Part shown: positions 49,222-64,000 of the stretch, in pieces
How positions within the stretch are numbered: position 1 is the first letter of the stretch
Layout: each line of letters starts with the position of its first letter
Origin: Sphaerisporangium rubeum
GTDB taxonomy: Bacteria; Actinomycetota; Actinomycetes; Streptosporangiales; Streptosporangiaceae
NCBI RefSeq assembly: GCF_014207705.1
Contig: NZ_JACHIU010000001.1
Location: 7,184,501-7,248,500, forward strand
DNA: 64,000 bases
Reading direction: 5' to 3'
Translations under genes and position numbers: made by a program
Notes under the pieces: generated by a model
The model's database searches: none
The model's input: the letters and a program-made list of their open reading frames with translations, nothing else
What the model was told of the DNA's origin: nothing

Positions 49222-50769
49222 ATGCTCGGCATCGGCGAGCTGGCGAAGCGGACCGGCCTGTCGGTCAAGCTGATCCGCCACTGGTCCGACATCGGCGTCG
49301 TGCCACCCGCAGGCCGTACGGCGGCCGGCTACCGGCGGTACGACGCGTCGTCGGTGGCCCGGCTCGAACTCGCGCGGACCCTCCGCGATCTCGGCCTCGG
49401 CATGGCCACCATCCGCGAGATCGCCGATCGCGGGGACGGCCTGGCCGAGGTCGCGGCCCTCCACGCCGACGCTCTGGAGGTGCGGATCCGCACGCTGCGA
49501 CGGCAGCAGGCGGTGCTGCGGTACGTCGCCACCCGCCGATCCACCCCACAGGAGCTCTCCCACATGGCCAGACTCTCCCGCCTGACCGCCGCGGAACGCG
49601 ACACGATGATCCGCGCCTTCGTCGACGACGTCGTCGGCGATCTCGACGTCCCCACCTACCGCGACGGCCTGCTCGCCGCGATGCCCGACCTCCCCGAATC
49701 CCCCACCGCCGAGCAGATCGGCGCCTGGATCGAACTCGGCGAACTGCTCCAGGACCCCGGCCTGCGCGCCGCGATGCGCCGCATGGCCGAGTACGCCGCG
49801 CGGCACGCACCCGGCGCGCACGATGAGAAGGCGCTGCGCGCCGCCGAGGACGTCACCGACTTCTGGCTGCGGGAGGTGAACGCCGCCACCGACGCCGGCC
49901 TCGCACCCGACTCACCGTCCGCCGACGCCGTCGTCGCACGAATCGTCGCCGCTTGGCTCCCCACCCAGGCCGCCGCCGGCTACACCCCCGGCGCCGACGG
50001 CGCCGAACCGAGGCGCCGGCTGCTCGAACAGCTGGAGGTCGCCGCCGACACCCGCGTCGAGCGCTACTGGCAACTGACGTGCGTGCTCAACGGCCTGCCG
50101 GTACGGCCCGGCATGGCCGACGCCGGCCGGTGGCTCACGACCGCGCTGCGCGCCAACCCCGAACCCGGCGCCGAGGCCCGTCGCGTCGCCGACGTGGCCG
50201 ACGCCGACACGACAGGCACCACCCCCGCCATGAAGCTGGACGCCTGCCGCCGCGTCCTCGCCGAGGTCGGCCACCTCGTCGCGGCCGTCCCTCCCGGCCA
50301 CATGAACGCACCCACCCCCTGCGCCGGCTGGACCGTACGCGAGCTGCTCGACCACCTGGTCTGGGAGAACCTGTTGTGGACCGGCCTCGCCACCGGCACC
50401 CCCCGCACCGACGTCGCCGCCGACCACCTGGGGGACGACCACGTGGCCGCCTTCCGTACCGCAGCGGAGGCGACCCTCGCGGCCTTCGGTCGTCCCGGCA
50501 TGCTGACCGAGCGCTTCGGCCCGGCCCCCGGCTGGCGCATGGTCGAGCAGGTCACCATCGAGATGCTCGTCCATGGCTGGGACCTCGCCAGATCCCTGGG
50601 CCTCCCCACCGACCTGGCCCCCGACGTGGCGCGCACACTCCTTCCCGCCGTCGAACAGATCTACGGCCACCTCCCCCGCACCCCCGGCGGCTCCTTCGCC
50701 GCCGTCCAGCGGGCCGCCGAGGACGCCACCCCCACCGACCGCCTCGCCGCCTACCTGGGCCGGTCATGA
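49222..50769 (+). CDS. MerR-type regulator fused to a DinB-like (TIGR03086/MDMPI) domain
   Basis: About 515 residues from ATG 49222. An N-terminal MerR HTH (about 1-70, LGIGELAKRTGLSVKLIRHW, GYRRYDASSVARLELARTL) is followed by the dimerisation helix, then a helical effector region of about 220 residues (AERDTMIRAFVDDVVGDLDV). The C-terminal domain of about 175 residues is the actinobacterial DinB-like/mycothiol-dependent maleylpyruvate-isomerase type (PTPCAGWTVRELLDHLVWEN, VTIEMLVHGWDLARSLGLP). The start is placed after the MerR-like promoter. Fusion of a DinB-like domain to a regulator is unusual. It could sense a thiol-conjugated or small-molecule ligand; this is inference. Confidence 0.78.
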   Translation: MLGIGELAKRTGLSVKLIRHWSDIGVVPPAGRTAAGYRRYDASSVARLELARTLRDLGLGMATIREIADRGDGLAEVAALHADALEVRIRTLRRQQAVLRYVATRRSTPQELSHMARLSRLTAAERDTMIRAFVDDVVGDLDVPTYRDGLLAAMPDLPESPTAEQIGAWIELGELLQDPGLRAAMRRMAEYAARHAPGAHDEKALRAAEDVTDFWLREVNAATDAGLAPDSPSADAVVARIVAAWLPTQAAAGYTPGADGAEPRRRLLEQLEVAADTRVERYWQLTCVLNGLPVRPGMADAGRWLTTALRANPEPGAEARRVADVADADTTGTTPAMKLDACRRVLAEVGHLVAAVPPGHMNAPTPCAGWTVRELLDHLVWENLLWTGLATGTPRTDVAADHLGDDHVAAFRTAAEATLAAFGRPGMLTERFGPAPGWRMVEQVTIEMLVHGWDLARSLGLPTDLAPDVARTLLPAVEQIYGHLPRTPGGSFAAVQRAAEDATPTDRLAAYLGRS

Positions 50770-51519
50770 CATGACGGGTTCGCGCGAGGGGGTGGCCGTG
50801 CCGAAGGCCGAGGTGGTGGCGCCGGCGGTCTCGCCGCCGTCGATCACCAGTTCCTGGCCGGTCAGGAATCGCGCCTCAGGTGAGGCCAGGTAGAAGAACG
50901 CGTCGGCGATCTCCTCGGGTGCCGCGTGCCGGCCCGCCGGGATGCGGCGGTTCACCTCGTCCAGCATGTCGCCGGTGTACTCGGCCTCTTGCATCGGCGT
51001 CAGCACGGCGCCGGGGCTGACGCAGGCGGTGCGGATGTGCGGGCTGAGCTCCAGCGCGAACGTCCGGCACAACGCGACGACACCGGCCTTGGTCGCGTTG
51101 TAGTCGGCGTAGAAGGGGTAGCCGCGCAGGCCGTTGACCGAGGCGGTGGCGAGCAGCACCCCTTCTCCCTGCCGCACCATGTGGCGCGCCGCGGCGCGCC
51201 ACAGGCCGAGCACCCCGAGCAGGTTGACGTCGCAGACGCGCCGCGCGTCCGCCTCACTGATGTCGAGGACACCGTGCCTGACGCTGATCCCGGCGTTCGC
51301 GATCACCACGTCGATCCGTCCTCGCTCCTGGTGGACGTCCGCCAGTGCCTGTTCGGTCGCCGACCAGTCGGCGACGTCGGCCGGCACCCACCTGACGGCG
51401 GACCCGGGTCGCGGCGGACGGACGTCCAGGTTCACGACATGGTCGCCGGCCCGGTGGAACCGCGCGGCCGTCGCCTCGCCGATCCCGCTGGACGCTCCAG
51501 AGATCACCACAGTTCGCAT
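50764..51519 (-). CDS. Short-chain dehydrogenase/reductase, last gene of the NRPS operon
   Basis: A 251-residue classical SDR. The NAD(P) motif is SGASSGIGEATAARF (residues 7-21), NAG is in VIANAGISVRHG, and the catalytic Ser is in LATASVNGLRGYP with Tyr/Lys in YADYNATKAGV (about 149-159). It starts 18 nt after the oxygenase stop, so it is almost surely in the NRPS operon. It would oxidise or reduce a hydroxyl or keto group on a precursor or product. The 3' end overlaps the convergent MerR-fusion gene by 6 nt. Confidence 0.88.
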   Translation of the reverse strand: MRTVVISGASSGIGEATAARFHRAGDHVVNLDVRPPRPGSAVRWVPADVADWSATEQALADVHQERGRIDVVIANAGISVRHGVLDISEADARRVCDVNLLGVLGLWRAAARHMVRQGEGVLLATASVNGLRGYPFYADYNATKAGVVALCRTFALELSPHIRTACVSPGAVLTPMQEAEYTGDMLDEVNRRIPAGRHAAPEEIADAFFYLASPEARFLTGQELVIDGGETAGATTSAFGTATPSREPVMS

Positions 51520-51537
51520 GACACATGCCTGCCTTTC

Positions 51538-52560
51538 TCAGTAGAGGACCCGCCGGCTGGACGTGGCCCGGTGATCGGCCGACTTCCTGATGTCCCGGCT
51601 GACGATCATCCGCTTCAGCCAGCGGTCGGTGCCGTCGTACCGCCCCGCGAAGGGCTTGCGGCCGTGCACGGCCAGGTAGTTGTCGACCACGGCGAGCGTG
51701 CCGGGGTTCACCACGACCGAGTACTGCACCCGGCGCAGCTCGTCCATCAGCCGGTCCAGCGCGCGTTCGGCCAACGGGTCGTCGCCGACGCAGCGCATGA
51801 AGGGCCGGTCGATCCTCAGGTACGGCGAGAAGGTGGTGCCGAACAGGACGGGAACCGGCTCGGGGTGGTCACGGATCTGGAGCATCTTGGCGAGCGCCGG
51901 GTGGCCGGGGTGGCGCAGTTCGAGCTGCCGGATGTGCTCGTCGTCCGGGACGATGAGGAACCTCGGCTCCGAGAGGATCCGCGTGTCCTGCTCGCTGAGG
52001 GACACGTCGCGCACCGAGGACACGATGGTCGGCACCCTGTCGTGATTGCGCAGGCCGAACAGCAGCAGGTAGTCGCAGCGCAGCGGGTGGAAGCCGTCCT
52101 CGGTGTGGAACTCCAGCAGCGTGTCACTGCTGTGGCCGTTCTGCCGCACCTCGTCGCCGCGGATGGGGAAGATGTTCTGGATCATCATGCCGGCCTGCAG
52201 CGTGGACCACGTGAACGGCTCGCCGAGGGCCATGGCGCACATCGCCATGGCGATCTCCTGCTCGACGGCGGCCGTCGAGCCGATCGCCGACTCCCAGTGG
52301 CCAGGGGTGGCCCCCACCGCGTCGTCGTCGACACCGAAACCGTGCACGAGGCAGACCGCCGCGGACTCGGTGCGGCGGAACCCCTCAAGGAACCTGCGCA
52401 GGCCGGCCGGCAGTTTCAGGTGGATGTCCCAGTGCCGGTCGTAGAACTCCGGGTCGGACGGCTGCCGTGACGAGCGCGCGATCTCGCGGGCACCGGCCCG
52501 CACCGCCGCGGCCTCGTCCGGACTCAGTGTGTACTGCACTGCGATCTCTTTGTCTTTCAT
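51538..52560 (-). CDS. VioC/AsnO-type Fe(II)/2-oxoglutarate-dependent amino-acid oxygenase
   Basis: A 340-residue member of the clavaminate-synthase-like group that includes VioC (Arg), AsnO (Asn) and related beta-hydroxylases of free amino acids for nonribosomal peptides. The metal ligands His and Glu are in LEFHTEDGFHPLRCDYLLL (about residues 143-161), with the distal His in VVDNYLAVHGRKPF (about 289-302). A C-terminal Arg in DRWLKRMIVSRD fits 2-oxoglutarate binding. It starts 12 nt after the NRPS stop. The likely action is C3-hydroxylation or desaturation of an amino-acid building block; the substrate cannot be read off. It resembles Arg/Asn hydroxylases rather than TauD. Confidence 0.87.
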   Translation of the reverse strand: MKDKEIAVQYTLSPDEAAAVRAGAREIARSSRQPSDPEFYDRHWDIHLKLPAGLRRFLEGFRRTESAAVCLVHGFGVDDDAVGATPGHWESAIGSTAAVEQEIAMAMCAMALGEPFTWSTLQAGMMIQNIFPIRGDEVRQNGHSSDTLLEFHTEDGFHPLRCDYLLLFGLRNHDRVPTIVSSVRDVSLSEQDTRILSEPRFLIVPDDEHIRQLELRHPGHPALAKMLQIRDHPEPVPVLFGTTFSPYLRIDRPFMRCVGDDPLAERALDRLMDELRRVQYSVVVNPGTLAVVDNYLAVHGRKPFAGRYDGTDRWLKRMIVSRDIRKSADHRATSSRRVLY

Positions 52561-52572
52561 GATCTCTCCGAC

Positions 52573-55500
52573 TCAGGTGTGGGCCAGCCTCAGGTGGCGC
52601 GACACGATCGCGGCGACGCGATCAAGGTTGTCCGGACGCGTCATGTCCTCATGAGCGCACGCGATCTCGTGCCGCTCGACCGTGCCGCTGACGTACGGGT
52701 GCCAGCTCGCCGCGTCGGGTGCGTCCCGCGCCGCGTCCACGGTCGCCTTGACGAACAGCGCGTGGCCGTCGAACATCCGGGGTGCCGCCGCCTCGACGAC
52801 GGCCACGTTGTCGGCGGCGGCGCGCACGAGCCTGTCGAGTGACGCGTCGCCGGGCTCGATGTGCGTGGTTCCTTCTCTCCGCAGGAGCGCCGCGATCTGG
52901 TCGCGCGCCGGACGGCCGTCGTCCGCCGGTCCCGGCACGTGACCCGGGGGATGGGAGTCGAGCAGCGCCAGCAGGGCCACCTCCTCGCCGTCGTCGCGCA
53001 ACCGGCACGCGACGGCATGCGCGACGGCGCCGCCGATCGACCAGCCGAGCAGGTGATACGGACCGGTGGGGGCGACCGTCCTGATGTGACGGACGTACTC
53101 TTCGGCCAGCTCGTCCAGCGAACGGTGCCGGGCCTCGGCGCCGACGGCGAACGGGTTCTGCAGGCCGTACACCGGCCGTTCGCGGCCGACCGTGGCGGCG
53201 AGGCCCGCGTAGCAGGAGCCGACACCCGTGACGGGATGGACACAGAACAGCGGCTCGGCCGTACCGGCGCGGCTGATCGGCAGCAACACCCCGCCGGGGT
53301 CCGGCCTGGCGGCGCCACCGGCCAGCCACTCCGCGATCCCCGCCACCGTCGGGGACTGGAAGAGCCGCTGCACACCGAGATCGACGCCGAACGCCGCACG
53401 GATCCGGCCGGCCAGGCGCGCGGCGAGGAGTGAGTGGCCCCCGAGGTCGAAGAAGCCGCTGTCGATCCCCACACGTTCCAGGCCGAGGACGTCCTGGAAC
53501 ATCGCGCGGAGCCGCGCCTCCACCGGTGTCCGGGGTTCCCGGTCGTCCACCGGGGCCGCGACGTCCGGACGCGGCAGCGCGCGGCGGTCCACCTTCCCGT
53601 GCGCCGTCAGCGGGAACCGGTCCACGCGGACCACCACGGACGGCACCATGTGGCCCGGCAGCGTTTCCGCGGCGAACCGGCGCAGCTCCCCGGGGTCGGC
53701 GACGGCACCGGGAACGGGGAGCGCGTAGGCGACGAGACGCCTGCTGGCCGGCTGGTCTCCGTCGGCCACCACGACGCACCGCGCGACCGAGGGGTGGCGC
53801 TCGACCGCCGTCTCCACCTCGGCGGGCTCGATCCGGAACCCCCGGATCTTCACCTGGTCGTCCGCGCGGCCCACGAAGTCGAGCCTGCCGCCGGCCGTCC
53901 ACCGGACCACGTCGCCGGTGCGGTACATGCGGGTCCCCGCCTCGCCGTACGGGTCGGCGACGAAACGCTCCGCGGTCAGGCCCGGCCGTCCGCTGTAGCC
54001 ACGCGCCACGCCGTGACCCGCGACGTAGAGTTCCCCTGGCAGGCCGGGAGGCACGGGCCGCAGCCGTTCGTCGAGCACGTACACGACGGCGTTGACGATC
54101 GGCCGGCCGAGGCTCGGCTCCGCCGTCTCCCGCATCGCGCAGCACAGGGTCTCCACCGTGCACTCCGTGGGGCCGTAGAAGTTGTACCCGGCCAGTCCCG
54201 GCGTGGCGCGCACCCGGTCCCACAACGGCCCCGGCACGGCCTCGCCGCCGACCGACAGCGTCGTGAGCGCCGTACGACCGTCGAGGAGACCGGATTCGAG
54301 CAGTTCCTGCGCGTACGCGGGACTGGTGTCCAGGAAGCCGATCTCCTCGCGGGCCAGGTAGGCCACGACCGCGGCCGGGTCACGGCGCAGGTCGTCGTCC
54401 AGGAGGTGCAGCTCGTGGCCCGCGATCATGAGCAGGACACCCATCCAGGAGCCGTCGAAGGACAGGGACGCGGTGATCGCGGCTCGTCCGCCGTTCTCGG
54501 GAAACAGGGTGACCCGGTGGCTGTGCAGCAGGTTCGCGATCTGACGGTGTTCCACCACGACCCCCTTGGGGGTGCCGGTGGAACCGGAGGTGAACAGGAC
54601 GTACGCGGCGTGACCTTCGCGCAGCGGCGCCTTCCTGTCCGCGTCGCACGGGTCGTGCTCGCGCATGGGCCCGTCGCAGGCGCCGGCGACCAGCACGGGA
54701 ACGGTGCCTGACGCCGGCAGGAGGGAGGCGAGCTCCTCGGTCGTGACGACGAGCGCCGGCGCCGCTCCTTCCAGGATGAGCGCGATCCGCTCCGGCGGGT
54801 AACCCACGTCGATCGGGACGTGCGCGGCTCCCGCCTTGTGCGCCGCGAGGATGGCGACGATCGCGTGAGAGGAACGTGGCAGCAGCAGCGCGACGCGGTC
54901 CTCCGGTCCGACGCCGCGGCCGATGAGCTCGAAGGCCAGCGCGTTGGCCCGCCGGTTCACCTCCGTGTACGTCAGCCGCTCGTCCCCGATCACCAGGGCC
55001 ACGGCGTCCGGGGTGCGCCTGACCTGGTCCTCGAAGTGCTCGTGGACACGGCGGTCCGGCGGGTCCCCCGCCACGGTACGGCTCCACGGGCCGAGGATCC
55101 GCTCACGCTCCTGCGCGGAGGTGAGCTCCGTAGCGGCGACGGTCCGGCCGGGATCGCCGGCCATCGCGGTCAGGACGCGGACGAACCGCGCGGCGACGCC
55201 TTCCACGGTGTCACGGTCGAACAGCGCGGTGCTGTAGGAGATCGTCGCGTCGAGGCCACCGGTGACCGGCGACTCCCGGACACCGAAGAGGAGGTCGAAC
55301 TCGGCCACGTCGTAGGTGAGGGGGTGGGGGGTGGTGGGGTGGCCGGGGAGGGTCCAGTCGTGGGTGGGGGTGTTCTGCAGGACGAGCATGGTTTGGAACA
55401 GGGGGTGGCGTGCGGGGTCGCGGGTGGGGTTGAGGGTTTCGACGAGGCGGTCGAAGGGGAGGTCCTGGTGGCTGTAGGCGTCCAGGTCGGTGGTGCGGAT

Positions 55501-58500
55501 CCGGTCGATGAGCTGGTGGTAGGTGGGGTCGCCGCCGGTGTCGGTGCGCAGGACCAGGGTGTTGACGAAGCAGCCGACCAGGCCGGTGAGCCGGTCGTCG
55601 GTGCGGCCGGCCACCGCGGTGCCGATCGGGATGTCGGTACGGCCGGTCAGCCTGCTGAGCAGGACGGCGAGCGCGGCGTGCAGCACCATGAACAACGTCG
55701 CCTGATGGGTCTGTGCCAGGTCCCGCAGCCGCCGGTGCAGCTCCGGGTCAATGCTCAGGTCGATCGTGGCTCCTGCTGAGCCGGCCACCGGGGGCCGGGG
55801 CCGGTCGAAAGGCAACGGAAGCTCGTCGGGAAGGCCGGCGAGTGCTTGGCGCCAGTAGGCGAGCTGGCGTGGTTCCTCTGTGGCCAGCAGTTGCTGTTGC
55901 CACAGGGTGTAGTCGGCGTACTGCACCGGCAACGCCGTCCACTCCGGGACCCGGCCCTGGGTGCGTGCCTCGTACGCGGTCGCCAGGTCCTCGGCCAGCG
56001 GCCGCATCGACCACCCGTCCGCCGCGATGTGATGCAACACCACCAAAAGCACCGACTCCCCACCCGACTCGAACAGCCACACCCGCACCGGCACCTCACG
56101 ATCGAGAGCGAAACGGTAGGCGGCCGCCTTCTCCAGCAGGTCGTCCAGCTCCTCCGGAGCGCAGGACACGCAGTCGAGCAGGTCGCGTCCGTCAGGCGGC
56201 GGCAGGACGAGCTGATGTGGCCGGCCGTCGACGACCGGGAAGACCGTGCGCAGGGTCTCGTGCCGGGCCACCACGTCACCGACCGCCGCCGCCAGCGCGT
56301 CGACGTCCACCCGGCCCGACACACCGAACGCCACCGGCACGTTGTACGTCGCGCTCGGACCCTCCCACTGGCGCATGAACCACAACCGGTACTGCGCCGC
56401 CGACAACGGCACCACCTCCGGCCGCACCACCGGCCGAAGCACCGGCCGCACATCCCCCGCATCACCCAGACACTCCACCAACCCCGCCACCGTCGGCGAC
56501 CGGAACAACGTCCGGATCCCCACCTCCACCCCCAGCACCGCACGCACCCGGCTCACCAACCGCGTCGCCAGCAACGAGTACCCGCCGAGAGCGAAGAAGT
56601 TGTCGTCGACCCCCACCTCGTCGACGCCGAGGACCTCGGCGAACAACCCGCACAGGATCTCCTCACGCGGATCGCGCGGGCCACGGGTGCCGGCTGTGAC
56701 GTGCGGCAGGTCGCCTGTGGCGGGCCGGACCGGGCCGGTCCGCTCCACCGGGTCCACCGCGACGGTCCGGCCGGGGTCGCCGGCCATGGCGCGCAGCACC
56801 TCGACGTAGCCGCGCACGAAACCCTCGACGGTGCCGCGGTCGAACAGCGCGGTGCTGTAGTCGAAGGTGCCGGTGATGCCGTCCGGCGTGCCGTCCTCGC
56901 GTCGCCGTTCCTCCGTGCGGACCGAGAGGTCGAACTTGGCCACGTCGTAGGTGAGGGGGTGGGGGGTGGTGGGGTGGCCGGGGAGGGTCCAGTCGTGGGT
57001 GGGGGTGTTCTGCAGGACGAGCATGGTTTGGAACAGGGGGTGGCGTGCGGGGTCGCGGGTGGGGTTGAGGGTTTCGACGAGGCGGTCGAAGGGGAGGTCC
57101 TGGTGGCTGTAGGCGTCCAGGTCGGTGGTGCGGATCCGGTCGATGAGCTGGTGGTAGGTGGGGTCGCCGCCGGTGTCGGTGCGCAGGACCAGGGTGTTGA
57201 CGAAGCAGCCGACCAGGCCGGTGAGCCGGTCGTCGGTGCGGCCGGCCACCGCGGTGCCGATCGGGATGTCGGTCCCACCGGTCAATCTGCTGAGCAGGAC
57301 GGCGAGCGCGGCGTGCAGCACCATGAACAACGTCGCCTGATGGGTCTGTGCCAGGTCCCGCAGCCGCAGGTGCAGTTCCGGGTCAATGCTCAACTCGACG
57401 GTGGCTCCTGCTGAGCCGGCCACCGGGGGCCGGGGCCGGTCGAAGGGCAACGGAAGCTCGTCGGGGAGGCCGGCGAGTGCTTGGCGCCAGTAGGCGAGCT
57501 GACGTGGTTCCTCTGTGGCCAGCAGTTGCTGTTGCCACAGGGTGTAGTCGGCGTACTGCACCGGCAGCGCCGTCCATTCAGGGGCCCTGCCGTGGGTGCG
57601 CGCCTGGTAGGCGGTCGCCAGGTCCTCGGACAGCGGCCGCATCGACCACCCGTCCGCTGCGATGTGGTGCAACACCACCAAAAGCACCGACTCCCCACCC
57701 GACTCGAACAGCCACACCCGCACCGGCACCTCACGATCGAGAGCGAAGTGGTGCGCCGCGGCCTCGTGGACCCGCCGGTCCAGTTCGCCGGGCCGGCAGG
57801 TGACGACCGTGAGCACCTCCTGCTCCCCCGGTGCGAGGACGACCTGGCGTGGCCGGCCGTCGACGACGGGGAAGACGGTGCGCAGCGTCTCGTGCCGGGC
57901 CACCACGTCACCGACCGCCTCCCTCAGCGCGTCGACGTCCACCCGGCCCGACACACCGAACGCCACCGGCACGTTGTACGTCGCGCTCGGACCCTCCCAC
58001 TGGCGCATGAACCACAACCGGTACTGCGCCGCCGACAACGGCACCACCTCCGGCCGCACCACCGGCCGAAGCACCGGCCGCACATCCCCCGCATCACCCA
58101 GACACTCCACCAACCCCGCCACCGTCGGCGACCGGAACAACGTCCGGATCCCCACCTCCACCCCCAGCACCGCACGCACCCGGCTCACCAACCGCGTCGC
58201 CAGCAACGAGTGCCCCCCGGCCTCGAAGAAGTCGTCGTCGACCCCCACCCGCTCCACGCCGAGGACCTCCGCGAACAACCCGCACAGGACCTCCTCACGC
58301 GCGTCGCGCGGTCCCCGGTCCCCGGCGGTGAACTCCACCGCCGGCAGGGCCGCGCGGTCGAGCTTGCCGTTGGGGGTGCGCGGCAACGCGTCGAGCACGA
58401 CGAAGGCTGAAGGGACGAGGTACTCCGGCAACGCCGCCGCCACGAACCTCCGCAGCTCGTCGGCGCCGGTGCCTGAGTGCTCCGCGAACACCACGTAGGA

Positions 58501-61227
58501 CACGACGCGTCCGTTCCCCGCTCCGTCGTCCAGGACGACCGTCGCGGCCTGCACGAGCGCGGGGTGCCCCGCGAGCACCGCGTCGATCTGGCCGGGTTCC
58601 ACGCGGAAACCACGCACCTTGACCTGGTCGTCGCTCCGGCCCGCGAACTCCAGGTTCCCGTCGGCGCGCCACCGCGCCAGGTCCCCGGTGCGGTACATGC
58701 GTCCCCCGCCGAACGGGTCGGCGACGAACCGCCGCGCCGTCAGCGCCGGCTGTCCCACATACCCGTGCGCCAGGCCCACCCCCGCGACGTACAGCTCGCC
58801 GAGCACTCCGGGAGGAACGGGCCGCAGCCGCTCGTCCAGGACGAACGCGTGCTTGCGGTTCAGCGGACGGCCGATGGGGATCCCCGCCTGGTCGGCCCCG
58901 GTCACCGCGTCGATCGAGTAGCACGTCGTGAAACCCATGCTCTCCACCGGGCCGTAACCGTTGAGGATCACCAGGCCGGGGAACTCCGCGCGGGCCCGGC
59001 CGACGTGTTCGACCGACGCGGTCTCCCCGGCCGTCATGACGACCCGCACCATCCCGAAGACCTCGGGGTGGGTTTCGAGGAGCGCGTTGAACAGGCTCGC
59101 GGACAGCTGCAGCACGGTGACGCCGTGCGCGGCGACCAGTTCCGCGATCTCGTCGAGGTCGGTTCTCGGCCCGGACGGCAGCACGCAGGTGCCGCCGTGG
59201 AACAGCGCGGAGAACACCTCCAGCCCGAAGGCGTCCCAGGAGATCGGGGAGGACTGCAGGTACACGTGGTGCGGCCCGAAGTCCAGATAACCCGCGTCGG
59301 CGAAGGTCCCGGCGAGAGCCGCGTGCGGGCTCATCACCCCCTTGGGCCTGCCGGTGGAGCCGGACGTGAACATCACACACGCGGCGTCACCGGGATCGAC
59401 GGCGCGGCCGAGGTCGGTCTCCGCCTCGTCGCCGGCCTTCTCGTCGTCGAGGAACAGCGGCGTGACACCGGCGGGGACCGGCCCGGCGAGGTCGCGCGTG
59501 GTGACGACCACCGGGACGCCGAGCTCGGTGACCCGGTCGGCCGTCCACCGTTCGGGGAAAGCCGTGTCGAGCAGCGTGTACGCGGCTCCGGTCTTGAGCA
59601 CGGCGAGCATGGCCGCGATCAGGCCGGGGCCACGAGGAAGCCGCACGGCCACCACCGATCCCGATCCCGCGCCGCCGAGTGCCGGCAGGAGCCGGCGCGC
59701 GAGCCGGTTGGCGTGCGCGTTCAGCTCCCCGAAGGTGACCTTCTCCTCGCTGTGCACCAGAGCGGTGCGCGACGGCGTCGAGGCGGCCTGCCGCTCGAAC
59801 ATCTCGTGCACCGTCTCGCCTGGCACCGTCCCGCCGCCGGCCAGTCCGCTCCAGCGCTCCGCCACGTCGCGCCGCCGCTCCTGCGACAGCAACCCGATGG
59901 AGCCGACCTCGATGCCGGGGCCGTGTTCCAGCACCTGCGAGATCATGGTGACCAGTACGTCGCGGAACGCCGCCAGTTGCCCGCCGTCGCAGGCTCCGGG
60001 GTTGGCGTCCACGTCGATGCGCAGGCCGCCGGTGCCGCACCGGTCGTCCACCACGACCTGGACGTCCTCGACGCGTCCGCACATGAAGTGGTGGAGCGTC
60101 ACCGGTGTGCCGGCGAGGGTCACCCGGTGGTCGAAACGCATGAGGTTCAGCAGGGGACCGAAGAACGAACCGCCGCCGTTCCCGCAGAGCCCGCGTATCT
60201 CGGCGAGCGGGAGGCGCTGGTGGGTGAGGACGTCCCGTACCTCACCCGACACCCGCGTGACCAGGTCGCGGAAGGTCATGCCGGAGGTGACGGACACGCG
60301 CAGCGGCAGGACCTTGGACATCATGACGGGTGCGCGCAGTGCGGTCTCGGTGACGCGGCCGGTCACCGGGAGGCTCATGACGACGTCACAGGTCCCGCCG
60401 ACCCGGTGCAGGTACGCCGCGAACAAGGCGATCATCACCCGCGTCCACCTGGTGCCGAGCGCGTCCGCGAGGTCGCGCAGCCGGTCGGCCTCGGCCGGGT
60501 GGAGCCGGTGCGAGGCGCGGACGATCCGCGTGGTGGCGGTCGTGGTGGGACGGCCGAGCGTCGTCACGACCGGCCGGTCGGCGAAGCGGCCCTTCCAGTA
60601 CGCGCGGTCGGCCTCGTGTTCGGCGGAGCCGGCGTACCGCCGTTCCTCCTCCAGGAGGTCCTCGGCGGCGGTGAACGACGCCGGGGGGATCTCCTGTCCG
60701 CCGGCCAGGGCCGTGTAGACGTCGGCGACCCGCCGCACGAACAGCGCGTGGGAGTAGCCGTCCGCCATCGTCTGGTGGATGCGGCGGTACCAGTAGAAGC
60801 GGTCGGGACCGAGCGTGAGCAGGACGTCCCCGATCAGGTCGCTGCGGCCGAGGTCGACCGGCGCGGCGAGGTCGGCGCGCATCCATTCCATGGCGGCCGC
60901 CGCCGGGTCGGGATGTCCGCTCAGGTCGGCCGTCGAGAAGGGGATGGCCCGCCGTGCGTCCACCTCCTGCCAGGGGTGGCCGTCGTCGTCCTCCACGAGG
61001 CGCGCGTTGAGCACCCTGGCGTCCGCGTACGCGCGCCGGACGGCGGTCTCGAACGCGGCGGTGTCGACGGCTCCGTGGATCTCCAGGTACTCACAGTTGG
61101 TCAGCAGTTCCGGCTGCCGCACACGGCACGCGTACCACGCGCTGAGCTGCGACGACGTGAGCGAGAGACGCTTTCTATCGAGTTCACCCGACATGATGGT
61201 GATCCTGTTCGCGACGGTGGGGGACAT
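52573..61227 (-). CDS. Three-module nonribosomal peptide synthetase, C-A-T-C-T-C-A-T-TE
   Basis: A 2,884-residue synthetase. The order I read is: C1 (about 20-440), A1 (465-960, [11 protein letters not shown] near 620), T1 (Ser 1007 in [11 protein letters not shown]), C2 (1050-1490), T2 (Ser 1551 in [11 protein letters not shown]), C3 (1595-2030), A2 (2070-2560), T3 (Ser 2599) and thioesterase (2655-2880, GWSIGG Ser 2730, LDSHPP, AHEDM). The middle module has no A domain. C1 has HQTMADG, with Gln 152 in the catalytic-His position; C2 and C3 have intact HHIAADG. A-pocket residues, read by eye against GrsA, are DALQMAGGFK (A1) and DGMDSGFVEK (A2). T1-C2 and T2-C3 are nearly identical. A second start, ATG 61194, is possible. 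It should release a short peptide or macrocycle. Confidence 0.93.
55306..56682. repeat. Intragenic T-C repeat, copy encoding T2-C3
   Basis: About 1.38 kb encoding the T2 domain and most of C3, matching 56941-58314 at an offset of 1,635 bp (1,632 bp past a one-codon indel). Long stretches are identical. A divergent patch lies near 56127-56262. Confidence 0.85.
56941..58314. repeat. Intragenic T-C repeat, copy encoding T1-C2
   Basis: The partner of 55306-56682, encoding the T1 and C2 domains of the NRPS. The matching patch of divergence is near 57760-57894. Such identity suggests recent duplication or gene conversion, and a risk of assembly collapse. Confidence 0.85.
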
Positions 61228-61254
61228 TCGGGGAAACGGCGCCGGTGACGGCGG

Positions 61255-62523
61255 TCAGTGGTGCGGCGCCGCGGCGGGAACGCCGGCCGCCTCGGTCCGC
61301 GGCCATACGTCGTCCGCGTCCAGCAGCGCGGCCTCGTACTTCCCGAGCGCGCTGATCAGCAGCCGCATCTCCAGGGCCATGCAGCGCACCAGCCGGACGA
61401 GCCCCTCGCCGGGATCCTCGTCGGCCGCCACGAGCGCGGCCCGGCCGAGGCCGACCGCCGTGGCGCCGAGCGCGAGGCTCTTCACGGCCCTCGCGCCGTG
61501 CCACATGCGTCCGCTGACCAGCAAGCAGTGCGCGGTGGGGCCGATCGCGCCGAGGCACTCGCGCAGCGGCAGCCCGACATCGTCGAGGAACGCGCTGGGG
61601 GCCCAGCCGGTGCCGCCTTCCGCGCCGTCCACGGTGACCGCGTCGGCACCCGCCTCCCAGGCGACGAGCGCCGCGGCACGGACGTCACGGGCCGGCGGCA
61701 GTTTCACCCAGACCTTGGCGCGGGGGAAGTTGTTGCGCATGAGACGCACCTGCTGGCGCAGGATCTCCTCGGTGACCGTGCCAGGCGTGGCCGACCTCAG
61801 CACCGCCTCCGGTCCGAAGATCGGCGCGATGCCGTAGCGGTCGCCGAGCCGGCCGGCGTCCGCGCGCGACATCACGGTCATCCCGCCGAGGCCGGGTTTG
61901 GCCCCCTGGCCGATCTTGAGCTCGAACGCCAGCCGTCCGCTGGTGATCAGCGCCTGTGACGCCGGGTCGCTGTAGACGAGGTTCCAGACCTCGGCGTCGG
62001 CGTCCTCTGTGCACTGCTGCACGACCAGTCCGCCGGCCGTGCCGTCCAGCTCATCGGCGTAGGCCCGGATCCGGCCGAGCAGCGACGCCGCGCCGGCGGC
62101 CTCCCGGCCGTATCCCTGGACGGGGACGACGTTCTCCCCCACCACCATCGGGATGCCGAGCCGGCCGGCCTGCCGGCTCACCGACAGCCCGAGGCCGCGG
62201 CTCGCCACGTCCGTGGAGCCGAGCGCCGACAAGTAGACCGGCGACGGGGCGGTGAATCCGCCGACGCGGCTGGTGAGGTCCACGTCCTCCCAGGTCGGCT
62301 CGCGGCCGAGGTCGATCAGCTTCTCCAGCCGGAGAGGCATGAAGACGGGAGGGACCAGCCGGAGTGCGTCCAGTGCGTCCTCGGGGCCACGGTCCGTCGC
62401 GCCGAAGAGGTCGTGGCCGTACGCGGTGTGCGGGGGGAAGGCCGCGGCCTCGCCTTCACGTGCACGCCGCCGGACGGCCTGTTCGGGGAAGCCCGGCGCG
62501 CGCGGTCCTGTCAGCTGAGTCAT
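61255..62523 (-). CDS. Stand-alone glutamate-synthase-like FMN-domain protein
   Basis: A 422-residue TIM-barrel protein matching the FMN/synthase domain of GltB. Signatures are PSPVYLSALGSTDVASRGLG (about 96-115), MVVGENVVPVQGYG, FELKIGQGAKPGLGGM (about 200-215) and VTVDGAEGGTGWAPSAF. The cysteine cluster that binds 3Fe-4S in GltB is absent, as are the glutaminase and GXGXG domains. It therefore cannot be a normal glutamate synthase. Its overlaps with the AsnRS-like gene (4 nt) and 27-nt gap to the NRPS place it in the pathway. It could transfer ammonia or do an FMN redox step on an amino acid; both are inference. Confidence 0.82.
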   Translation of the reverse strand: MTQLTGPRAPGFPEQAVRRRAREGEAAAFPPHTAYGHDLFGATDRGPEDALDALRLVPPVFMPLRLEKLIDLGREPTWEDVDLTSRVGGFTAPSPVYLSALGSTDVASRGLGLSVSRQAGRLGIPMVVGENVVPVQGYGREAAGAASLLGRIRAYADELDGTAGGLVVQQCTEDADAEVWNLVYSDPASQALITSGRLAFELKIGQGAKPGLGGMTVMSRADAGRLGDRYGIAPIFGPEAVLRSATPGTVTEEILRQQVRLMRNNFPRAKVWVKLPPARDVRAAALVAWEAGADAVTVDGAEGGTGWAPSAFLDDVGLPLRECLGAIGPTAHCLLVSGRMWHGARAVKSLALGATAVGLGRAALVAADEDPGEGLVRLVRCMALEMRLLISALGKYEAALLDADDVWPRTEAAGVPAAAPHH

Positions 62524-63524
62524 GGCGACGGCACTCCGGGAAGCTTCGGGAAGGCGGTGGCCTGCGCCACGGCCTCCAGGCCCGCGAGGTAGCGGGTCAG
62601 CCGCTCCACCCCGAGACCGAAGCCCGCGCTCGGCGGTATCCCTTGGCGCACGAGATCGAGGTACCAGCCGTACTTGGCCGGGTTCTCCCCCGTCTCCCGC
62701 ATGCGCTGGACGACCCTGCGGTACTCGAACTCCCGCTCGCCGCCGCTCGCGAGCTCGCCGTACCCCTCGGGGGCCAGCAGGTCGAAGTCCCGCAGCAGGC
62801 CGGGCTGTGTGCGGCTCTCACGGTCGTAGAAGCCGCGCGACCCCTTCGGGTAGCCGGTGACGAAGAACGGCCTCGTCGCCTCCAGTGACAGCAGCTCCTC
62901 GCCGCGCCAGTCGATCTCGGCGTACTCGTTGTGCTCCAGCCGCATGCCTCTGATCGCCGTGACGGCCTCGGTGTGCGTGACACGGTCGAACAGGCCGGTC
63001 AGCGCCGGCGCGAAGACACCGGTGTCCCGGCCCAGCGCCGCGAGGTCGGCACGCCGGTTCGCGACGACCGAACCGATGACGTGGGTCACCAGGTCGCGCG
63101 ACAGATCCATGATCTCGGTGCAGGACGCGTGCGCGACCTCCACGTCGAGCTGGTAGAACTCCGTCAGGTGCCGGCCGGTGAACCGGGTCTCCAGGGGTTC
63201 CAGGCGCAGGTTCGGCGCGATGTAGTAGATCTTGTCGAAGGCCAGCAGCGACGCCTGCTTGTACAGGATGGCGCTGGTCATCACCTTGTACCGGTGGCCG
63301 TAGTAGTCGATGTCGACCTGCTTGGCGCCGCGCGCGCCGGGGTCGGTGACGGGGCCGACGAGCGGCGGCTGAAGCTCCACGAAACCCGCGCCGTCGAGGA
63401 ACTCCCGCGCCGCGCGCAACGCCTCGTGCCGTACGCCGAGCACGCGGCGCGTGACGGGGGACATCAGGTGGTCGCGGATGTCCGGGGGACAGCCGATCGC
63501 GGCCTCGGTCTGATGGGTGGTCAT
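62520..63524 (-). CDS. AsnRS-like catalytic core (asparagine-synthetase-type, class II aaRS paralogue)
   Basis: A 334-residue class IIb aminoacyl-tRNA-synthetase catalytic core without the N-terminal anticodon-binding OB domain. Motif 1 is near GFVELQPPLVGPV. Motif 2 is NLRLEPLETRFTGRHLTEFY (about residues 111-130), closely like AsnRS/AspRS. Motif 3 is AGFGLGVERLTRYLAG near the C-terminus. Stand-alone AsnRS paralogues of this size are asparagine synthetases in archaea (AS-AR), forming an aspartyl-adenylate attacked by ammonia. Here the likely acid is aspartate or 3-methylaspartate. It overlaps its neighbours by 4 nt on each side. It is unlikely to charge tRNA. Confidence 0.85.
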   Translation of the reverse strand: MTTHQTEAAIGCPPDIRDHLMSPVTRRVLGVRHEALRAAREFLDGAGFVELQPPLVGPVTDPGARGAKQVDIDYYGHRYKVMTSAILYKQASLLAFDKIYYIAPNLRLEPLETRFTGRHLTEFYQLDVEVAHASCTEIMDLSRDLVTHVIGSVVANRRADLAALGRDTGVFAPALTGLFDRVTHTEAVTAIRGMRLEHNEYAEIDWRGEELLSLEATRPFFVTGYPKGSRGFYDRESRTQPGLLRDFDLLAPEGYGELASGGEREFEYRRVVQRMRETGENPAKYGWYLDLVRQGIPPSAGFGLGVERLTRYLAGLEAVAQATAFPKLPGVPSP

Positions 63525-64000
63525 GGGATCTGCTCCTTCGCGTCGAACTTCTGACGGACGTAGGACAGGGACCGCAGGAAGTCGTCCCCACCCGGCGCCG
63601 GCCGTCCCGGCCGGCGCTCACCGAGGGGCATCGTCCCGGTGGAGGTCCAGACCAGGCGGCCGTCCCCGTCGAGGCCGCTGCTCGTGCGTCCGGCGTTGCC
63701 GGGATGCAGGCAGTACGGGACGTCGAGGTAGCCGCGGTCGAACGCGCACACCAGGCCGCGGCCGACGTCGGGGTGGAGATCGAGCACCGCGTCCACGAGC
63801 CCTCTGGCCTCCGCCATGACACCCGTGTCCGGGACGGCCGCGGTGCTCCGCGCCGCACGACCGCGTTCGCCTTCCGCCACACTCGCGGCGTATTCGAGCG
63901 CCTCGACGTTCTGCGCGATCGTCGGGATGCGGAACGCCTCGGCGGCGGTCTTGACGATCAGCCGCTCCGAACCGGTGCGCACGGCCAGCTCGGCCGCCTC
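63521..64000 (-). CDS. glmE: Glutamate mutase (methylaspartate mutase) E subunit, C-terminal fragment
   Basis: The last 159 codons of a gene that runs off the right edge; the start is outside the window. The residues match the C-terminal part of the large subunit of cobalamin-dependent glutamate mutase: ERLIVKTAAEAFRIPTIAQN, then DVGRGLVCAFDRGYLDVPYC and HPGNAGRTSSGLDGDGRLVW. The enzyme converts L-glutamate to (2S,3S)-3-methylaspartate. It also needs the small B12-binding GlmS subunit, which is expected just outside. The stop overlaps the AsnRS-like start by 4 nt, so it belongs to the NRPS operon. Confidence 0.8.
   Translation of the reverse strand, partial: EAAELAVRTGSERLIVKTAAEAFRIPTIAQNVEALEYAASVAEGERGRAARSTAAVPDTGVMAEARGLVDAVLDLHPDVGRGLVCAFDRGYLDVPYCLHPGNAGRTSSGLDGDGRLVWTSTGTMPLGERRPGRPAPGGDDFLRSLSYVRQKFDAKEQIP

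Follow-up and report, generated by a model that had tools for sequence, protein, structure and literature searches.

A streptolydigin-type glutamate mutase cassette in a non-ribosomal peptide synthetase gene cluster of Sphaerisporangium rubeum

The right-hand part of a 64,000-nucleotide stretch of the Sphaerisporangium rubeum chromosome (hereafter the window; G000:C1:7184501-7248500 of a 7.5-Mb chromosome) probably represents one end of a non-ribosomal peptide synthetase (NRPS) cluster with a streptolydigin-type cassette, in which glutamate would be converted to 3-methylaspartate, amidated by an asparagine-synthetase-like ligase (AsnL) and loaded by the first adenylation (A) domain, A1. An earlier note on this DNA had proposed a peptide route from glutamate via a mutase and an amidating AsnRS paralogue; this outline was largely right, and the cassette and the A domain now connect it with streptolydigin. 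An orphan cluster would thereby be linked to a residue of known origin.

The operon of six minus-strand genes with 4-nt overlaps or 12-27 nt gaps is seen in the ORF coordinates of the window, where it runs from 50764 to beyond the window edge with spacings, counted from the short-chain dehydrogenase (SDR) to mutase subunit E, of 18, 12, 27, -4 and -4 nt. All on the minus strand, the genes encode the SDR (50764..51519; PF00106, PF13561), a VioC/GntD-type Fe/2OG oxygenase (51538..52560; NF041363), the NRPS (52573..61227; Pfam), a TIM-barrel FMN protein of the SlgE3 type (61255..62523; PF01645), AsnL, a ligase of the asparagine synthetase A type that lacks the N-terminal region of AsnRS (62520..63524; NF005052), and a GlmE-like mutase subunit E (63521..64000, the gene extending to 64792 beyond the window; PF06368). 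Apart from NRPS domains, the Pfam families include tRNA-synt_2, Glu_synthase, TauD and adh_short. The original gene naming was upheld by Pfam and NCBIfam with two refinements, which concern the order of the NRPS domains and the AsnRS-like protein. GC content at third codon positions is 0.83-0.94 versus 0.44-0.59 at second positions (the mutase ORF being taken with an overlong start), a contrast that fits real coding. No Rfam match at gathering scores was detected in window positions 40000-64000.

The cluster had been expected to be larger than the window, and it is. GlmS, the partner subunit whose absence would have spoken against the route, is encoded on the same strand to the right of the window (G000:C1:7249289-7249753), and its gene overlaps glmE by 4 nt. 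Further along the same strand follow a zinc-binding oxidoreductase, a ketoacyl synthase III (KAS III) with Cys136 and His276 motifs, an Asp/Asn-hydroxylase-like protein, a free A-T didomain protein, a TauD-type oxygenase, a type II thioesterase and MbtH, and that strand also encodes an MFS exporter, a SARP-type regulator and an HTH protein. The thioesterase and MbtH were named by eye from the sequence and gave no NCBIfam match at 1e-10. The pocket code of the free A-T protein, DAQDFGVVDK, is one that we take to be Gln-like. Altogether, the cluster contains three Fe/2OG-type enzymes, two of them past the window edge.

GlmE matches PF06368 with 292 bits (cut-off 26.6), and is below the NCBIfam equivalog for subunit E, TIGR01503 (166.6 bits, cut-off 390.1), while GlmS matches the B12-binding family PF02310 with 35.3 bits (cut-off 32.1). 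The usual B12-binding motif is DxHxxG; of the 39 GlmS copies matched in cassette loci, 37 carry D[SA]H[TNI]WN, in which D and H are kept and G is replaced by N. All four cassette genes were found to be orthologous to the streptolydigin genes slgE1-slgE2-slgZ-slgE3, with protein identities to the G870 locus of 52% for GlmS, 64% (63.6%) for GlmE, 60% for AsnL and 67% for the FMN protein; G870 appears to be the genome of the streptolydigin producer Streptomyces lydicus 103. Its cassette is situated amid genes of polyketide, P450 and deoxysugar types, as read by eye, and the locus also holds an MbtH-A protein.

With 443.9 bits against a cut-off of 368, AsnL passes NF005052, the NCBIfam model of asparagine synthetase A, and it stays below both AsnRS equivalogs (194.9 versus 414 and 157.2 versus 342.6 bits). 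Its alignment to AsnRS begins only at residue 125, and it also aligns to the archaeal AsnA 3p8t. The earlier designation as the amidase core of an AsnRS-like protein was thus correct in pointing to an amidating AsnRS paralogue, but the class is asparagine synthetase A. One might suppose that such a protein, with its class II synthetase fold and with the AsnRS 1x54 as its top solved match by E-value, serves self-resistance or tRNA charging rather than biosynthesis. We regard this as highly unlikely, given the missing N-terminal part and the outcome of the AsnRS and AsnA cut-offs; moreover, a weaker, separate match is present elsewhere in the genome in a 529-aa frame, and overexpression of slgZ and slgM is described as raising streptolydigin production (PMC5357945).

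By Pfam, the NRPS contains three condensation (C), two A and three thiolation (T) domains and one thioesterase (TE; 52597..53253; PF00975, 106 bits). The three modules seen earlier hold as three C/T modules, but the middle one lacks an A domain of its own, the order being C-A-T-C-T-C-A-T-TE. C2 and C3 (window 55093-58041) share 86.5% identity over 431 aa; to judge from this likeness, the pair is a recent duplication, which may account for the module without an A domain. Pocket positions were mapped by motif in GrsA numbering. For A1 (approximate borders 58273..59808) they give DALQMAGGFK, nearly identical to DALQIGGGFK of the A domain in the streptolydigin locus, and for A3 (approximate borders 53548..55035) DGMDSGFVEK, possibly of the Arg type. 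The best solved relative of A1 is PDB 4gr5 (E 4.7e-164), that is, SlgN1, described as a protein with a 3-methylaspartate-activating A domain (PDB 4GR4, 4GR5; PMC11355689, PMC11253843), for which the substrate is given as (2S,3S)-beta-methyl-L-Asp (PMC11253843). The same pocket-code run returns DILQLG codes, and DILQLGVI is reported as a glycine code (PMC5466765).

The DALQ code is associated with genomes that carry the FMN cassette, an observation that is new here. Within the long loci, it was read in 15 of 69 A domains, one apiece in 15 loci, which corresponds to 15 of the 35 loci, with cassette or FMN-AsnL pair, in which an A domain could be read within the stretch covered. Twenty FMN-positive Streptomyces genomes new to the A-domain readings were then set against 20 of the 336 FMN-negative ones: DALQ occurred in 17/30 best A1-like domains of the former and in 0/27 readable A domains from the 30 best A1-like loci of the latter, both lists being ranked by likeness to A1, with lower-ranked A domains of the negatives outside the count. 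DALQ domains were found in half of the positive genomes (10/20), seven of these ten having two copies. In nine of the ten, approx. 30 kb or less separates the domain from the FMN gene; in the tenth, G962, domain and gene are on different contigs. Counter-cases are three loci with Asn-like codes (L026, L027, L032), two showing DALW only (L030, L033) and others with DALH, DALY or unrelated codes. The code could nonetheless serve as a testable marker for genome mining.

The arrangement in the window is a real, conserved cluster. G065, from another genus of the same family, has the whole cluster conserved within about 25 kb: the cassette, the oxidoreductase, KAS III, hydroxylase, A-T protein, TauD, thioesterase, MbtH, NRPS (54.5% identity), VioC-type enzyme (66.7%), SDR (72.1%) and MFS exporter (37.1%). 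NRPS, VioC and SDR follow in the same order as in the window, the A1 code is likewise DALQMAGGFK, and the A3 code reads DGMDCGFVEK. A 30-kb contig of the Streptomyces genome G987 carries the NRPS, VioC, SDR (77% identity), GlmS, GlmE, FMN protein, MbtH, thioesterase, TauD, A-T protein and hydroxylase; KAS III, the oxidoreductase and AsnL were not found on this contig, AsnL being located on another one. With the gene set recurring in G065, and most of it on the G987 contig, the arrangement in the window is not due to chance.

Within this cluster, the genes for the mutase, AsnL and the FMN protein form a conserved cassette, GlmS-GlmE-AsnL-FMN. Counting the genome studied here, AsnL was detected in 12 of 249 genomes of the order, and the FMN protein in 14/341 genomes of the family and 2/396 of a phylum sample; 56 of 392 sampled Streptomyces genomes encode the FMN protein. 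In a set of 30 short-flank Streptomyces loci found via the FMN protein, AsnL is present in 29 and GlmE in 23. In 29 longer FMN-found loci (six from a first search, three from the family search and 20 of 59 Streptomyces match rows), AsnL is within 150 bp in 28 and GlmE within 8 kb in 27. Conversely, 13 AsnL-found loci, a set biased toward the AsnL-FMN pairing, have the FMN gene within 150 bp in ten and within 8 kb in 12, and lack it in one (L035 of G088).

The cassette and the AsnL-FMN pair occur in varied surroundings. A second pair in the genome studied here (L036; G000:C1:5014500-5034400), with the two genes 5.9 kb apart, has as neighbours an NRPS, a homocitrate-synthase-like HMGL protein, a LOG-type protein and a PurF-like protein; genes for the latter two are also found in L056 (G684), and the HMGL-like gene in L060 (G144). 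In L034 (6133-18034), AsnL and the FMN protein are encoded beside a lantibiotic dehydratase, a LanC-like protein and a PCMT; Pfam gave no mutase match in that genome. In L023 and L024, the full cassette is accompanied by genes for an L-amino-acid ligase, an FAD oxidoreductase, a solute-binding protein and a MetRS-like protein (Pfam was run on L023 only), with no NRPS match within the 20-kb stretch of either; the MetRS-like gene might have arisen as a resistance copy. In L057 (7029-13806), cassette genes adjoin aromatic-polyketide cyclases and an AsnB-type protein, and in L028 a tryptophan halogenase stands beside the pair or cassette.

Two roles were weighed for the FMN protein. It comprises 422 aa and matches PF01645 with 70.8 bits (cut-off 20.4), its Pfam matches include no glutamine-amidotransferase domain, and it fails the equivalogs for both GltB (18.6 bits, cut-off 1047) and type 2 IPP isomerase (TIGR02151; 42.1 bits, cut-off 281.3). 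The nearest solved chains are those of type 2 IPP isomerase and glutamate synthase (GltS), and a predicted model (pLDDT 80) fits hydroxy-acid oxidases and IPP isomerase equally. Across its relatives, a QQxTEDA stretch and a single Cys (C323) are invariant, and no His is. The Fe-S cysteines of the glutamate synthase large subunit form a C-x5-C-x4-C-like motif, and this is absent in 21/21 relatives of the FMN protein.

In print, SlgE3 is called a glutamate synthase that supplies glutamate, with slgE3 expression up to 9-fold higher (PMC5357945). That the FMN protein likewise feeds glutamate to the mutase would agree with this statement, with the PF01645 match and with GlmE near the FMN gene in 27 of the 29 longer loci. 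G088 would also agree, as an accessory supply gene might be dispensable: its locus combines a DALQ A domain with the mutase and AsnL, and the FMN family is absent from the whole genome, the best match being 1.6e-11 in a 1642-aa frame. We nevertheless consider glutamate supply rather unlikely. The small size, the missing amidotransferase domain, the GltB score and the lack of the Fe-S motif all stand against it, and two genomes, G144 and G196, retain AsnL and the FMN protein with no mutase above the Pfam cut-off, which argues against a role limited to glutamate supply. Only these two count as AsnL-FMN without mutase, as G186, G740 (L018) and G741 (L020) have a mutase elsewhere in the genome and the second pair of G000 shares its genome with the mutase of the window. 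The printed assignment of SlgE3 as a glutamate synthase is therefore a poor fit with sequence and gene context.

Another explanation, quite conceivable though still short of probable, is that the FMN protein is a partner of AsnL, generating ammonia by amino-acid oxidation or acting in a redox-neutral manner, such as by epimerisation, on (methyl)aspartate or its amide. Its association with AsnL is slightly closer than that with the mutase: AsnL adjoins it in 29/30 short-flank Streptomyces loci and 28/29 longer loci, the two genes overlap by 4 nt in the window, and the pair persists without mutase in G144 and G196; its kinship to type 2 IPP isomerase, an enzyme without net redox change, points the same way. 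However, 27/29 versus 28/29 is a slight difference, the genes are 7.5 kb apart in G144 and equally not adjacent in the second G000 locus, and those of G987 are located on separate contigs. AsnL without the FMN protein in G088 weighs against this role too, and against the FMN protein as an obligatory step in general. Going one step further, and more tentatively, we propose that the SlgE3-type protein might be a flavoenzyme of new function, not a glutamate synthase, that would join AsnL in acting on beta-substituted aspartates or on amides of these; that the AsnL-FMN pair, whether or not a mutase is present, might feed clusters of NRPS, L-amino-acid-ligase, aromatic polyketide and lanthipeptide types; and that DALQxxGG[FLY]K might be the NRPS code that marks the residue.

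Taking the cassette route as the preferred reading, we infer from the gene content the chemistry, whether amidation precedes loading, the remaining residues and the product. The B12-dependent mutase would convert L-glutamate to (2S,3S)-3-methylaspartate, from which AsnL, being of the AsnA type, would form the beta-amide via an acyl adenylate and ammonia. A1 would load 3-methylasparagine, or 3-methylaspartate if amidation comes later; as the substrate given for SlgN1 is the free acid, amidation may follow loading. The free A-T protein, with its Gln-like code, and the possibly Arg-type A3 would bring other units, the three Fe/2OG-type enzymes and the SDR may oxidise them, and the TE would release a small peptide. 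The route is favoured by GlmS beyond the edge, the orthologous cassette of G870, the AsnA cut-off passed by AsnL, the match of A1 to SlgN1, the DALQ contrast between FMN-positive and FMN-negative genomes, the conserved cluster of G065, and the precedent of beta-methylasparagine in omnipeptin; weighing against it are DALQ in only 15/35 loci, the failed GlmE equivalog and DxHxxN in GlmS. In a vicenistatin-type route, the mutase step would be the same and 3-methylaspartate would be decarboxylated to a beta-amino acid; VinN is described as also accepting 3-methylaspartate (PMC11253843). A Pfam scan that covered 15 of the 17 cluster genes found no PLP-type decarboxylase, and we hold such a route to be extremely improbable.

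Among known systems, AsnL resembles the archaeal asparagine synthetase A of Pyrococcus (3p8t) in length class, the missing N-terminal part, motifs and NF005052, and differs from it in its location in biosynthetic clusters and its probable substrate, 3-methylaspartate. The FMN domain of GltS and type 2 IPP isomerase are FMN TIM-barrel relatives of the FMN protein, which departs from them in the missing Fe-S motif and amidotransferase domain and in failing both NCBIfam cut-offs. The oxygenase, named VioC-type earlier, is indeed close to the arginine-type hydroxylases VioC and GntD: it passes GntD (NF041363; 380.6 bits, cut-off 345) but not the VioC equivalog (TIGR03946; 295.6 bits, cut-off 418.6), and among solved structures it is closest to non-heme iron and arginine hydroxylases. 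A bacterial NRPS product with beta-methylasparagine is described in omnipeptin, a metagenomic depsipeptide of 11 residues with chloro-Trp and others (PMC6710260). Methylaspartate as mentioned in a desotamide review belongs to another route (PMC7459860), and this candidate was set aside.

In the open-licence literature, without a MIBiG comparison, we recognised no description of the full gene set. The author of the earlier note had known of no pathway with this combination, but streptolydigin is one: the mutase slgE1-E2, the GltB-like SlgE3 and the AsnRS-like SlgZ are described among its genes (PMC5357945), and these, like SlgN1, have their orthologues in this cluster. A known cluster with a known product thus exists for the cassette, but none was recognised for the rest of the cluster. 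Streptolydigin is a polyketide-NRPS tetramic acid and has the methyltransferase SlgM, of which no counterpart appeared among the Pfam-scanned genes, whereas the cluster described here has a multi-domain NRPS, KAS III, three Fe/2OG-type enzymes and the SDR. What the two share are the four orthologous cassette genes and an A domain alike in both sequence and code, and with them the combination has its precedent.
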